From Oricola sp. (lineage in GTDB: Bacteria; Pseudomonadota; Alphaproteobacteria; Rhizobiales; Rhizobiaceae): a stretch of 64,000 bases of DNA. Location of the stretch: NCBI RefSeq assembly GCF_022763245.1, contig NZ_JALEGV010000005.1:240717-304716 (forward strand), read 5' to 3'. Shown in pieces: positions 53,644 to 63,797 of this stretch (positions are counted from its first letter, which is position 1; each line of letters opens with the position of its first letter). The position numbers were made by a program, and so were the translations under genes. The notes under the pieces were generated by a model, which saw nothing but the letters and a program-made list of their open reading frames with translations, did no database searches and had not been told where the DNA came from.

Positions 53644-57147
<3,504 letters not shown>

Positions 57148-57177: not shown

Positions 57178-57185
57178 ATGCGCAT
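57165..57185. promoter_or_regulatory. Tandem 8-bp palindromes: likely CcdA/CcdB autoregulatory operator
   Basis: Two identical copies of the palindrome ATGCGCAT lie at 57165-57172 and 57178-57185, with ATCTT between them. They bracket the -10 box and cover the predicted start site and start codon of ccdA, as expected for autorepression of a type II toxin-antitoxin operon. Confidence 0.7.
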
Positions 57186-57423
57186 GAACGAGAGCAAACC
57201 GATCAAGCGCAGCAGCGCGAACCTGTCGGTGTCTTCCGACCTCATCGCCGAGGCGAAGGCGCTCGACATCAACCTGTCGCGCGCGGCGGAAGACGGGATC
57301 TCGAAGGCGGTTCGGGAAGAAAAAACCCGCCGCTGGAAGGAAGACAACGCCGAGGCGATCGCGGACTGGAACCGCTGGGTCGCCGAACACGGTTTGCCGC
57401 TCGCCAAATACCGCATGTTCTGA
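57184..57423 (+). CDS. ccdA: CcdA-like antitoxin
   Basis: A 79-residue protein (81 if the ATG at 57178 is used). The N-terminal half is a ribbon-helix-helix-like DNA-binding part (KRSSANLSVSSDLIAEAKALDIN) and the C-terminal half has the toxin-binding pattern WKEDNAEAIADWNRWVAEHGLPLAKYR, close to F-plasmid CcdA. It neutralises CcdB and represses the operon. The stop overlaps the ccdB start (TGATG). Confidence 0.92.
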   Translation: MNESKPIKRSSANLSVSSDLIAEAKALDINLSRAAEDGISKAVREEKTRRWKEDNAEAIADWNRWVAEHGLPLAKYRMF

Positions 57424-57716
57424 TGGCGCGCTACGACGTCCATCCCTTCGATGGCGCCTACGCGCTGGATGTCCAGTCCGAAATCGTGGACATGTTCGAG
57501 ACGCGCACGGTGGTACCGCTGTTGCCGAGAGGCGTCGTGCCCACCGCGCTGCCCCGCCTCCATCCCGTGTTCAAGATCGAGAACGTGGAATACACGATGG
57601 CGACACACTTCGTCGCGGCGGTTCCCAAGACAGCGCTGAAACCTCGAGTCGCCAATCTCGCGCACGAACACGACCGGATCGTCGCCGCGCTCGACATGCT
57701 GTTCCATGGCTTTTGA
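57423..57716 (+). CDS. ccdB: CcdB-like toxin
   Basis: A 97-residue protein similar in length and pattern to CcdB: DVQSEIVD near residue 17, VVPLLPRG, RLHPVFKIE, MATHFVAAVP and VANLAHEHDRIVAALDMLF. F-plasmid CcdB poisons gyrase and needs its final Trp-Gly-Ile; this protein ends His-Gly-Phe, so the Trp is missing. It may still be toxic with another fit or be attenuated. The next gene starts inside its last codons. Confidence 0.9.
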   Translation: MARYDVHPFDGAYALDVQSEIVDMFETRTVVPLLPRGVVPTALPRLHPVFKIENVEYTMATHFVAAVPKTALKPRVANLAHEHDRIVAALDMLFHGF

Positions 57717-58203
57717 CGATCCTGCCACGCGCGACGATTTCGGCTATCATGATCCGGGCCTGGGCACGCTGCGGGACGACTGGAACATCGAGGCGTGGTG
57801 CGGACGGCTCGACTACGACGGCGATCACTGCGACCTGACCCTCTACGAGACCGAGGCGGACGGATTTCCCGATGCCGATCCGAGGCCGTCGGGCCTTGGC
57901 CGGCTGCGCGATGTGCAGGCGCGGATGACGACGCATTTCCTGCCGCGCGCCATCGAGGCCGTGATCGCCGCGCGCACGGCCCGGCTGAACTGGCGGGACG
58001 GGCCGCCGGCGGATCGCTGGGGGCCGGTCGAAGTGGCGGTGGAAACCGACAATTCGCTCTGGCTTTCGGTCTATGAGGGCGAGACGGACGAGTATTCCCT
58101 GTGGATCGTCGCCTTCGACGATTCCGATCTGCCAAGAGAGGTCCGGCGGACATCCTATGTGGCCGCGCAGACGCGTCTGTCACAGGCCGGCAGAATGGTG
58201 TGA
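57706..58203 (+). CDS. Unrecognised acidic protein coupled to ccdB
   Basis: A 165-residue, strongly acidic and Trp-containing soluble protein that I cannot assign. The C-terminal half has repeating strand-like segments (VEVAVETDNSLWLSVYEGE then YSLWIVAFDD). Its ATG lies in the last codons of ccdB (11-base overlap), so it is expressed with the toxin-antitoxin pair. It might be a third module component or a cargo gene. No function is proposed. Confidence 0.7.
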   Translation: MAFDDPATRDDFGYHDPGLGTLRDDWNIEAWCGRLDYDGDHCDLTLYETEADGFPDADPRPSGLGRLRDVQARMTTHFLPRAIEAVIAARTARLNWRDGPPADRWGPVEVAVETDNSLWLSVYEGETDEYSLWIVAFDDSDLPREVRRTSYVAAQTRLSQAGRMV

Positions 58204-58244
58204 AACGCGGCGCTCGGCACAACTTCGCCCCCATGATCGCCCCT

Positions 58245-58273
58245 TTGCAAGCGTTGCGATTTGGGCCTATAGT
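58245..58273 (+). promoter_or_regulatory. Strong sigma-70-type promoter upstream of greA
   Basis: TTGCAA (58245-58250) and TATAGT (58268-58273) are separated by exactly 17 bases. The transcript should start at about 58280, some 110 bases before the greA ATG. Confidence 0.65.
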
Positions 58274-58291
58274 CGCCCGCTGAAGACGTGG

Positions 58292-58330
58292 CGGTTCCTG
58301 AGCGTTCGCTCCGGGGGCCGTTTTGTTTTG
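58292..58330 (+). terminator. Attenuator-like intrinsic terminator in the greA leader
   Basis: An imperfect stem pairs 58292-58303 with 58308-58320 (11 pairs, one mismatch, one bulge, loop GTTC) and runs directly into TTTTGTTTTG. It begins only about 12 bases after the predicted start, so it would end most transcripts as an RNA of about 50 bases. A second hairpin CCGGCG/CGCCGG follows at 58335-58353. Confidence 0.65.
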
Positions 58331-58388
58331 TGCTCCGGCGGAACGCGCGCCGGGCCGCACTTGGGGCCAAGAAGAAGGAACGGGCCAA

Positions 58389-58862
58389 ATGGATAAAGCG
58401 CCGATGACCGCGAACGGATTCGCGTCCCTCAAGGAGGAGTTGCGCTGGCGCCAGCAGGAAGAACGCCCACGGATCATCGAGGCGATCTCGGAAGCGCGTG
58501 CGCATGGCGACCTCTCCGAAAACGCGGAATACCATGCCGCCAAGGAAGCGCAGTCCCACAACGAGGGCCGCATCGCCGAGTTGGAAGACCTGATCAGCCG
58601 CGCCGAGGTGATCGACATCTCCAAACTGTCGGGCTCACGCGTGAAGTTCGGCGCCACCGTGACGCTGGCCGACGAGGACACCGACGAGGAGAAGGTCTAC
58701 CAGATCGTCGGCGACCAGGAAGCCGACGTGAAGGCCGGGCGCATCTCGATCTCTTCGCCGATCGCGCGCGCGCTGATCGGCAAGGACGAAGGCGATTCCG
58801 TCGAGGTGCAGGCGCCGGGCGGCGCGCACAGCTACGAAATCGTCAAGGTCACATGGATCTGA
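58389..58862 (+). CDS. greA: Transcription elongation factor GreA
   Basis: A 157-residue factor. The N-terminal coiled coil has the acidic tip [21 protein letters not shown] (in part, with the conserved D-x-x-E-N), which enters the RNA polymerase secondary channel and stimulates cleavage of backtracked RNA. The C-terminal FKBP-like domain has [18 protein letters not shown]. The start is the ATG at 58389 after AAGGAACGG. Its leader looks attenuated (see 58292-58330). Confidence 0.97.
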
Positions 58863-58913
58863 CGCATCCGCGTACGCATCGCTGAAAACCCGTCTTGGTG
58901 AAAAACCGGCCCC

Positions 58914-59999
58914 ATGGCTCCCCGTTACGTCCCGGTGTCGGACACTGAAGTGATCGCAACGAATTTCGCCAGGCGCAATTCGGGCGGCACGACGGCGGTC
59001 ATCCAGCTGGTGCCTGAGCAGGCCAAGACGCTCAAGATCGCCGTGCTCGGCCAGTTGCTGACCGACAAGGTTCCGCGGCTGCGGCTTCGCCTTCGTGACC
59101 TGCCGGCGCTGTGGCGCCGGCCGAAGGCCAGGCCGTTTCGCATCTATCACTGCCGCCGCAACAACGAGATGATCTTCGGCATGATCCTGCGCGACGTGCT
59201 GCGCATGCCGATCCGGCTGATCTTCAACTCCGCCGCGCAGCGCGATCACAAGCCGGCGACCAAGTGGATGATCCGCCGCATGGACGCTGTGATCGCCACG
59301 AGCCGGGAATCCGGCAGTTACCTCAAGGTGCCCCACACCGTGGTCATGCACGGCACCGACATCGAGCGCTTCCATCCGCCCGTGTCGCCCGAGGACGATT
59401 TCGCCGCTGCCGGTCTGCCGGGCAAATACTGCGTCGGCTGCACCGGCCGGATCCGCCACCAGAAAGGCACCGACCTTTTCGTCGACGCGATGATCGCGCT
59501 GCTGCCGCGCCATCCCAACTGGACAGCGGTCATCACCGGGCAGATCACCTCCGACAACACGGCGTTTGCGGACGAGCTCAAGCAGCGCATCCGCGCGGCG
59601 GGGCTCTCCGAGCGCATCGTCTTTCTGGGCGAAGTGCCGGATATCGCCCGCTGGTATCGCCGCATGCATCTCTTCGTCGCTCCGTCGCGCAACGAAGGTT
59701 TCGGCCTCACGCCGCTGGAAGCGATGGCATCACAGACCCCGGTCGTCGCCAGCACCGCCGGCTCCTATCGCGCGATGATCCGCGAGGGCGTCAACGGATC
59801 GATCTTCCCGGCCGGTGATCTCGAAGCGCTGACCGCCAGGCTGGAGCCGTATTTCGCCGACCCGGACATGGCCGCGCGCCACGGTGACGCTGCGCTCGAC
59901 GTCGTGCGCGCGGACTTCTCGCTCGCCGCCGAGGCAAGCGGCATCCGCGAGGTCTATTACGCCTTGTGGGCGAGCGCGGCGCCGGGCCTTGCAAAGTAG
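58914..59999 (+). CDS. Glycosyltransferase family 4 protein (LpcC-like LPS core mannosyltransferase)
   Basis: A 361-residue glycosyltransferase. The C-terminal GT4 nucleotide-sugar motif is EGFGLTPLEAMASQTPVVAS; the middle has VGCTGRIRHQKGTDLFVDAM. The first 90 residues are a basic N-terminal region. Position next to greA and overall pattern suggest the rhizobial LpcC, which adds mannose to the inner Kdo of LPS. The GT4 call is firm, the LpcC call is inference. Confidence 0.75.
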   Translation: MAPRYVPVSDTEVIATNFARRNSGGTTAVIQLVPEQAKTLKIAVLGQLLTDKVPRLRLRLRDLPALWRRPKARPFRIYHCRRNNEMIFGMILRDVLRMPIRLIFNSAAQRDHKPATKWMIRRMDAVIATSRESGSYLKVPHTVVMHGTDIERFHPPVSPEDDFAAAGLPGKYCVGCTGRIRHQKGTDLFVDAMIALLPRHPNWTAVITGQITSDNTAFADELKQRIRAAGLSERIVFLGEVPDIARWYRRMHLFVAPSRNEGFGLTPLEAMASQTPVVASTAGSYRAMIREGVNGSIFPAGDLEALTARLEPYFADPDMAARHGDAALDVVRADFSLAAEASGIREVYYALWASAAPGLAK

Positions 60000-62875: not shown

Positions 62876-62900
62876 GCCGCCCGCATCGGGGGAGACGGGG

Positions 62901-63797
62901 ATGCCGCTCGACTGGGACAAATTGCGCGTGTTTCATGCCGCCGCCGAGGCCGGGTCGTTCACCCATGCCGGCGAGACGCTGCACATGTCGCAATCGGCCG
63001 TCAGCCGCCAGGTCTCCGCACTCGAGCACGAGGTCGGCGTCGCGCTGTTCAACCGCCACGCGCGCGGGCTGGTGCTGACGGAACAGGGCGAATTGCTGTT
63101 CCGCACGGCCAACGAGGTCTTCGTCAAGCTGGAGACGGTGCGCGCGCAACTGTCCGAATCGACCGAGCGCCCCTCCGGCCAGTTGCGGGTGACGACGACG
63201 GTCGGTCTCGGCTCCGGCTGGCTGACCTATCGCGTGCAGGATTTCCTGGAGCTCTATCCTGAAATTCAGCTGCACCTGATGCTGTCGAACGAGGAACTCG
63301 ACCTCAACATGCGGCAGGCGGATTGCGCGATCCGGCTGCGCGCGCCGTCACAGCCCGACCTGATCCAGCGCAAGCTGTTCACGGTGCATTTCCACGTCTA
63401 TGCCTCGCCGGCCTATGTGAACAAGCATGGCCGACCGGAGAAGCCCGAGGATCTCGACAACCACCGGATCATCGGCTTCGCCGAGCCCGCACCTGCCTAT
63501 CTGATGGAAATGCGCTCGTTCCTGACGCTCGGGCGCCCTGACGGCAAGCCGCGGGTTCCGGTTCTCGACATCAACTCGATCATGTCGATCAAGCGGGCCG
63601 TTCAGCGCGGCATCGGCATCGCCATGTTGCCGGACTACGCCGTTGAGCGAGACGCAGGGCTCGTGCAGTTGCTCGTCGATACCGAACTGCCGGCCTTCGA
63701 CACCTACTTCGTGTACCCGGAAGCCTTGCGCAACAGCGCCAAACTGCAGGCTTTCCGTGATTTCCTGATTTCCAAGGCGCGTAGCTGGGCCTACTGA
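62901..63797 (+). CDS. LysR-family transcriptional regulator
   Basis: A 298-residue regulator. The N-terminal helix-turn-helix is FHAAAEAGSFTHAGETLHMSQSAVSRQVSALE in part; the C-terminal 200 residues form the ligand-binding domain (RVTTTVGLGSGWLTYRVQDFLELYPEI). It follows trxB in the same direction, a neighbourhood conserved in rhizobia. Target and ligand unknown. Confidence 0.94.
   Translation: MPLDWDKLRVFHAAAEAGSFTHAGETLHMSQSAVSRQVSALEHEVGVALFNRHARGLVLTEQGELLFRTANEVFVKLETVRAQLSESTERPSGQLRVTTTVGLGSGWLTYRVQDFLELYPEIQLHLMLSNEELDLNMRQADCAIRLRAPSQPDLIQRKLFTVHFHVYASPAYVNKHGRPEKPEDLDNHRIIGFAEPAPAYLMEMRSFLTLGRPDGKPRVPVLDINSIMSIKRAVQRGIGIAMLPDYAVERDAGLVQLLVDTELPAFDTYFVYPEALRNSAKLQAFRDFLISKARSWAY

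Follow-up and report, generated by a model that had tools for sequence, protein, structure and literature searches.

Organisation of the greA leader

The window, by which we mean the whole 64,000-nucleotide (nt) stretch of DNA analysed here, contains greA, the gene of a factor that rescues RNA polymerase. It has a single match in its own genome, starts at 58389, as called in the initial annotation, and encodes a product with the expected Pfam domains. The leader in front of it is made of a promoter-like hexamer pair, a hairpin with a T-rich tail and a longer stretch that contains a Shine–Dalgarno-like motif (Table 1). Further upstream, the ccdA–ccdB pair and an open reading frame (ORF) at 57706–58203 separate the leader from a gene that we take, from its translation, to be carB; this ORF is the nearest to the leader, is co-directional with greA and has no Pfam match.

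Table 1 Features of the greA leader and its upstream neighbours in the window
Feature	Position	Strand	Basis and remarks
Predicted −35 element, TTGCAA	58245–58250	+	Promoter-motif scan
Predicted −10 element, TATAGT	58268–58273	+	Promoter-motif scan; 17-base spacer to TTGCAA
Predicted short leader RNA	58280–58331	+	About 50–52 nt, from the predicted +1 to where the T tract ends
Predicted intrinsic-terminator hairpin, CGGTTCCTGAGC-GTTC-GCTCCGGGGGCCG	58292–58320	+	Folding; 12 pairs, one bulged C
T tract, TTTTGTTTTG	58321–58331	+	Read from sequence; one G interrupting
Second hairpin of the initial annotation	58330–58360	+	Folds, yet no better than composition predicts
Shine–Dalgarno-like motif of greA, AGAAGGA	58373–58379	+	Sequence motif
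greA, transcription elongation factor	58389–58862	+	157 aa; ATG at 58389; Pfam GreA_GreB_N, GreA_GreB
carB (presumed)	53644–57147	+	Ends 1241 nt upstream of greA, 1.1 kb before the hairpin
ccdA–ccdB toxin–antitoxin pair	57178–57716	+	Pfam CcdA 96.6 bits, CcdB 85.3 bits

The TTGCAA-N17-TATAGT pair (58245–58273) and a stem-loop close to the predicted start, followed by a T-rich tail, had both been pointed out in the initial annotation, and both stand out from shuffled sequence: two overlapping promoter-like matches fall within 57800–59200, against a mean of 0.2 in shuffles, and the 53 nt from 58280 to 58332 fold at −25.5 kcal/mol (z = −3.83), a stability that none of 200 shuffles equals. The stem-loop also recurs in relatives, as described below. 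Its core, GGTTCC...GGGGGCC, occupies 58293–58319 and is extended by an outer pair, C58292–G58320, after which the tail reads GTTTTGTTTTG. A simple consensus terminator scan of the region returns no terminator, presumably because the tail is interrupted and the stem bulged, and folding was used instead. The predicted transcription start (+1) was placed 7 nt after the −10 element, at 58280 in the window; counted from there, the hairpin begins between +8 (outer pairs) and +13 (core), the T tract ends at about +52 and the greA 5′ untranslated region (UTR) measures 109 nt. Taken as a whole, 58280–58400 has a fold z of only −0.65. The second hairpin, which the initial annotation had listed as a further part of the leader, finds no support as a functional element: it folds, but the stretch after the T tract shows no excess over composition (z = +0.5 in the window, with a mean of −0.9 over 43 leaders, the window's included).

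An Rfam search of the window gives no family at the gathering threshold. A match at 58290–58331 to ctRNA_p42d (RF00489), an antisense RNA of repABC plasmids, reaches 14.4 bits where the cut-off is 50 (E = 3.6) and was set aside as chance level.

Recurrence across the Rhizobiaceae

Regions upstream of greA were compared in 61 Rhizobiaceae genomes, the window's own and 60 others, with 29 of 40 genomes, each from another family of the same order, as an outgroup. The family name follows GTDB usage, together with the identity of some leaders with named ones (L007 with Aquibium L031, L029 with Brucella endophytica L043, and L013 with L035 of a Mesorhizobium MAG). A leader was taken to have the full arrangement if a hairpin of −12 kcal/mol or better is followed by a T tract and preceded, 8–25 nt upstream, by a −10 element of at least 5 of 7 points.

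The initial annotation had let its proposal depend on the stem being kept in relatives, and in most of them a hairpin recurs: hairpin and T tract are present in 56 of the 61 Rhizobiaceae leaders, against 140 of 1220 dinucleotide shuffles, and the full arrangement in 43, against 1 of 1220. In the outgroup, 9 of 29 loci have hairpin and T tract and none has the full arrangement (50 and 2, respectively, of their 580 shuffles), so that the full arrangement separates the Rhizobiaceae from the other families with a Fisher p of 1.4e-11. Among 52 loci taken as non-Rhizobiaceae by the titles of their records, 19 have the hairpin and none has it with a −10 element; in a sample of the phylum, the classifier is passed by 3 of 73 greA leaders outside the class and by 4 of 21 within it, all four from the window's family. 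Among named loci, the full arrangement is present in, for example, Ciceribacter, Endobacterium, Ensifer, Shinella, Mesorhizobium, Agrobacterium and Hoeflea marina, whereas in Rhizobium SEMIA4064, Hoeflea C1, Roseitalea, Antarcticirhabdus, Ahrensia, Aureimonas and a Rhizobiaceae MAG (L072) the hairpin is present without a −10 element that satisfies the rule. By the same rule the full arrangement is absent from 18 of the 61, some of which retain the hairpin, with no recognisable promoter, right behind carB.

The predicted hairpin RNAs have a mean z of −3.3 over the 43 full leaders, 40 of them below −2, and a Shine–Dalgarno-like motif is found in 56 of the 61 Rhizobiaceae leaders. The −10 sequence TATAGT is identical in all six genomes of the window's genus, five of which also carry the TTGCA core of the −35 element 16 or 17 nt away. 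Over the 43 leaders, the best −35 match averages 3.5 of 6 positions, compared with 2.4 in shuffles, and 29 have an extended −10 element (TGn), a motif that the scoring itself favours.

Two loci titled as from a Rhodobacteraceae MAG (L045, L053) encode a GreA 77–78% identical to the window's, and their labels may be wrong; L045 has a full rhizobial-type leader. Of three reduced genomes of the family (L120/G011, L200/G135, L135/G049), two, of 1.1 and 1.5 Mb, pass the leader classifier. The third, AT-rich and 1.5 Mb in size, has no hairpin, and its carB ends 180 nt upstream of greA.

Linkage of the hairpin to greA

A covariance model of the rhizobial hairpin, hereafter R1, which counts the window sequence among its members, matches the window at 58287–58332 with 51.1 bits (E = 1.9e-10). 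This is the best site in its own genome, where the next scores 23.1 bits (E = 0.07), with 150 of 3211 first-look candidates scored; as judged by R1, the strong hairpin is single-copy there and linked to greA. Across the family, 136 of 199 genomes, representing 81 of 109 genera, have an R1 match at E 0.01 or better. Among the 111 family matches listed with at least 33 bits, 104 were examined against the position of greA, the other 7 falling outside the count. All but three of these 104 lie on the same strand as greA and less than 250 nt upstream of it (101 matches), and the three exceptions (33–34.4 bits) each occur as a second site in a genome that has a greA-linked match as well. In 289 genomes of the class, R1 matches at E 0.01 or better in 30, the window's own genome included. 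The 19 class loci fetched from outside that genome have no greA within about 1.5 kb on either side and score at best 36.9 bits, and we take them to be chance terminators.

Spacing between predicted start and T tract

In 42 of the 43 full leaders (in the remaining one the measuring rule recognises no T tract), the predicted +1 and the end of the T tract are separated by 42–58 nt, with a median of 53 and a standard deviation of 2.8. The distance from the end of the T tract to the greA ATG is variable, unlike this one (median 57, standard deviation 17). An RNA of about 50 bases, as the initial annotation had expected, is therefore borne out as a predicted length, with 52 nt in the window. The classifier rule limits this spacing, so we repeated the measurement with an unrestricted −10 search reaching 130 nt upstream: a −10 element of at least 5 points is found in 45 of the 56 hairpin leaders, and 40 of the 45 give an RNA of 45–60 nt, compared with 41 of 310 −10 matches in 1120 shuffles.

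Only 2–17 nt (median 9) precede the hairpin, and these bases are not conserved, which leaves no room there for an aptamer or a leader peptide; neither a sensor RNA nor an antiterminator was found before the terminator, within those 2–17 nt or by Rfam match. Riboswitches, T-boxes and leader-peptide attenuators likewise place a terminator in a 5′ UTR, but the rhizobial leader differs from them in having no sensor RNA before the terminator and no Rfam family. The natural reading would then be that any input acts by way of the polymerase.

Stem sequence and covariation

The stem sequence is common, not invariant: GGTTCC occurs in 32 of the 56 hairpins found by folding alone and GG[T/C]NCC in 39. 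In the 44 of 61 leaders that can be anchored on the stem, the lower stem and the T tract are rich in information, while the 5′ tail, the loop and the downstream stretch carry little, the anchor pattern itself demanding GG and constraining its neighbours, so that information there is inflated. No conserved unpaired seed is found in these 44 leaders. Folded one by one, 47 hairpins have as their third pair U–G (19), U–A (17) or C–G (4) and as their tenth G–C (19), C–G (8) or A–U (7), in folds that choose their pairs by themselves and of which a few are misanchored.

Paired base changes across relatives, which the initial annotation had proposed to look for, appear in one alignment and not in another. 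The plain MAFFT alignment A1 comprises 48 leaders chosen by sequence pattern (50 of 166 distinct loci matched; a spurious row, L061, and duplicates were left out), and its conservation is partly built in by that selection. RNAalifold finds only four pairs on A1, and by eye the position of the bulge differs between clades. For a 13-pair structure on A1, six pairs are changed on both sides, no excess over the 5.2 in shuffles (174 of 500), and the percentage paired is 68.6, against 70.5. On the structure-fitted alignment A2, 10 of the 13 pairs are changed on both sides, against 6.2 in shuffles (0 of 500), and the percentage paired is not above shuffles (70.8 versus 70.7). When leaders are aligned within a clade (A3, 13 rows; A4, 11 rows), the lower stem is almost invariant. 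Support from covariation is thus mixed, and our argument rests on the stability and position of the hairpin instead.

Upstream neighbours and the probable owner of the predicted terminator

The hairpin could be the ordinary terminator of an upstream gene, perhaps ancestrally carB, that stands before greA by accident. Indeed, carB ends at most 500 nt upstream of greA in 16 of the 61 Rhizobiaceae, and in four genera (L018, L117, L121, L126) a GGTTCC- or GGTCC-type hairpin with a T tract and no recognisable promoter stands directly behind carB, where it would be a carB–greA intercistronic terminator. The full arrangement, however, is found in 5 of the 16 carB-adjacent genomes, against 37 of the 44 for which the stretch examined contains no carB (p = 0.0002); these make up 37 of the 43 full leaders. 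The one remaining genome is the window's own, in which carB ends 1.1 kb before the hairpin, behind ccdAB and another ORF.

For 42 of the 43 full leaders (all except the window's own), the longest frame in about 1.2 kb upstream was scanned against Pfam, a procedure that could miss an intervening short gene; 28 have a match at or above the cut-off and 14 have none. Of the 28 confirmed genes, 11 run towards greA (carB in four, Tle1-like in two, and TPR, GGDEF, bPH_2, aminotransferase and DUF4282), as the terminator of an upstream gene would allow, and 17 diverge from it (GSDH, radical SAM, EamA, DAO, FMN_red, DUF3775). A divergent neighbour leaves no upstream gene that would seem to require this terminator, and the −10 element, moreover, sits upstream of the hairpin at a nearly fixed distance. 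We regard a terminator borrowed from an upstream gene as quite unlikely; since 17 of the 28 confirmed genes point away, the hairpin most likely ends greA's own transcript. The upstream neighbour varies within the window's genus: in two of its genomes (L003, L004), though not in the window, a Tle1-like phospholipase-domain ORF ends 170–192 nt upstream of greA.

Promoter, hairpin and T tract together also resemble a minimal small-RNA gene, and the unit might be one, with its own promoter and a full terminator, another promoter driving greA. A survey of S. meliloti reports 173 trans small RNAs and 379 leader transcripts (PMC2873474). Yet only 1 of the 43 leaders has a −10-like hexamer in the interval from T tract to Shine–Dalgarno motif, near chance (28 of 860 shuffles), and there is little conserved sequence in the 5′ tail and the loop, the places expected to hold a seed. 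An independent small-RNA gene is therefore, in our judgement, improbable, if slightly less so than a terminator serving an upstream gene. The rarity of such hexamers downstream of the hairpin, taken with the divergent neighbours, makes it most likely instead that the polymerases making greA mRNA have to cross the hairpin.

T tract and proposed partial termination

Leader sites with at least 7 Ts of 9 were collected from 85 loci, nearly all Rhizobiaceae, giving 74 distinct sites. The tract is broken by one base after 3–5 Ts in 51 of these, compared with 6 of the 48 non-leader sites that this rule picks out in those loci and the window (p = 4e-10), a weak control in that many of these 48 may be something other than true terminators. 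A run of 6–8 Ts lies near the hairpin end in 11 of the 56 hairpin leaders, so the weak tail is not general; the idea that leader T tracts never hold six Ts in a row was ruled out by these 11.

The presence of a T-rich tract directly after the hairpin at all 74 sites bears on a further reading, in which the hairpin does not terminate at all and, as a 5′-UTR structure, protects the greA mRNA or tunes its translation. Hairpins at the 5′ end can stabilise mRNA, but with that tract in place we consider this reading very improbable.

Termination at the hairpin would be partial. We infer this mostly from the need to express greA, because transcripts from this promoter must cross the hairpin and the gene must be expressed; all 101 genomes surveyed contain greA, one of them as a mere fragment, which makes a full block of transcription unlikely. 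The simplest form of a leaky hairpin would be a fixed, unregulated partial terminator that lowers greA output and involves no feedback. Both the lack of a sensor RNA before the hairpin and the often early break of the T tract fit such a brake; the recurrence and narrow spacing seem to go beyond the needs of a weak brake, while being compatible with one, and we treat it as a serious possibility.

Proposed mechanism

The reading that we favour, and hold to be probable, is that the greA leader contains a leaky promoter-proximal attenuator, which frees a short RNA while part of the polymerases read on. It builds on what can be read from the genomes themselves, namely how the parts are ordered and spaced, how often they recur, the linkage to greA, the single copy in the window's genome, the rarity of a second promoter-like −10 element between hairpin and gene and the often divergent neighbours. 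In this scheme, the −35/−10 pair fires and transcription starts near 58280. The hairpin and its interrupted T tract, ending about 52 nt after the start, would terminate many transcripts early, releasing the short leader RNA, and the remaining polymerases would continue into greA. Early termination would in this way set the amount of GreA, and the decision to stop or go on would lie with the polymerase and the factors on it. By analogy with GraL of E. coli, at which termination rises with catalytically active GreA, GreA itself would probably be the input, exerting negative feedback on its own level.

Relation to GraL and other leaders

In E. coli, about two thirds of the transcripts stop at the GraL terminator, and GraL drops about fourfold without GreA, an effect that needs catalytically active GreA (PMC6829880). 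The feedback is seen in vivo and not in vitro, the text leaving the accessory factor unidentified, and it weakens when the 5′ tail is scrambled or the two arms of the hairpin are swapped (PMC6829880). GraL is further marked by about one third read-through, scattered 3′ ends and action in trans (nudE).

The rhizobial leader shares with GraL the gene, the promoter, the short distance from the start, a single intrinsic terminator with a T tract and the long stretch to greA; in both, an intrinsic terminator lies in the greA 5′ UTR downstream of a greA promoter, here as predicted from sequence. The E. coli K-12 greA leader passes the same classifier, its T tract ending at +53 by the same rule, and the predicted lengths here (52 nt for the window's leader and a median of 53 for the 42 leaders measured) fall within the 49–59 nt given for GraL from P1 (PMC6829880). 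The two differ in that the rhizobial T tract is often broken early, that one promoter is found in the rhizobial leader and two in E. coli, and that the need for the 5′ tail described for E. coli (PMC6829880) finds no support here, the rhizobial 5′ tail not being conserved. Nor is there recognisable sequence similarity: the E. coli hairpin matches R1 with only 3.7 bits (E = 8.7), and because of this we do not file the leader as a member of the GraL family. The same geometry without sequence similarity probably reflects a separate origin, or else divergence beyond recognition. Our best reading, by analogy, is that the rhizobial leader would work like GraL; the GraL-like attenuated leader suggested in the initial annotation stands as anatomy, through its recurrence, its predicted length of about 53 nt and its GraL geometry, and is not recognisable as a sequence relative.

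A bolder proposal, which we put forward only tentatively, is that Enterobacteria and Rhizobiaceae independently evolved a leaky terminator about 53 nt from the greA start, where the polymerase, in early elongation, would read its own GreA occupancy, lowering greA when GreA is plentiful. If this is true, the core of the sensor would be a fixed distance, while nearly every other feature could vary. As far as we found, GraL is an enterobacterial case, with its mechanism unsolved in the account of PMC6829880. A second, sequence-unrelated leader of the same geometry would show which features matter, that is, the distance from the start, the terminator and the lack of a sensor RNA, and the rhizobial leader would give an independent system for finding the missing factor.

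Premature terminators in greA and rnk leaders were predicted in silico by Naville and Gautheret in 2010, from Proteobacteria to Clostridia (PMC2965389). Their attenuators resemble the present one in placing a premature terminator in the greA leader, but their models each have a clear antiterminator (PMC2965389), in contrast to the 2–17 nt before the rhizobial hairpin. The organisms named in section 11 of that paper and in its figure legend are enterobacteria, Pseudomonas, bacilli and Yersinia, and rhizobia are not among them (PMC2965389). The initial annotation's remark that such a leader is not described in alphaproteobacteria thus holds for the titles and abstract starts returned by our searches, and is qualified by these earlier predictions. 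What was known already is GraL in E. coli and the in silico terminators of greA and rnk leaders (PMC2965389); what appears new, by our searches, is the rhizobial leader.

Those searches, which covered titles and the starts of abstracts, returned no description of a rhizobial greA leader. The S. meliloti greA gene presumably carries the tag SMc01217. As a whole word, greA has no occurrence in the main texts of PMC2873474, PMC7717549, PMC10117765, PMC7566282, PMC3738593, PMC2704228 and PMC10469942. An RNA of about 53 nt is predicted in many well-studied rhizobia, and existing small-RNA data could confirm it.

Elsewhere in the window, a gene for a LysR regulator (Pfam) at 62898–63797 adjoins a gene that, judged from its translation, is thioredoxin-reductase-like. 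Judged by synteny, this regulator may be LsrB/VtlR, whose gene lies beside the AbcR small RNA genes in rhizobia.
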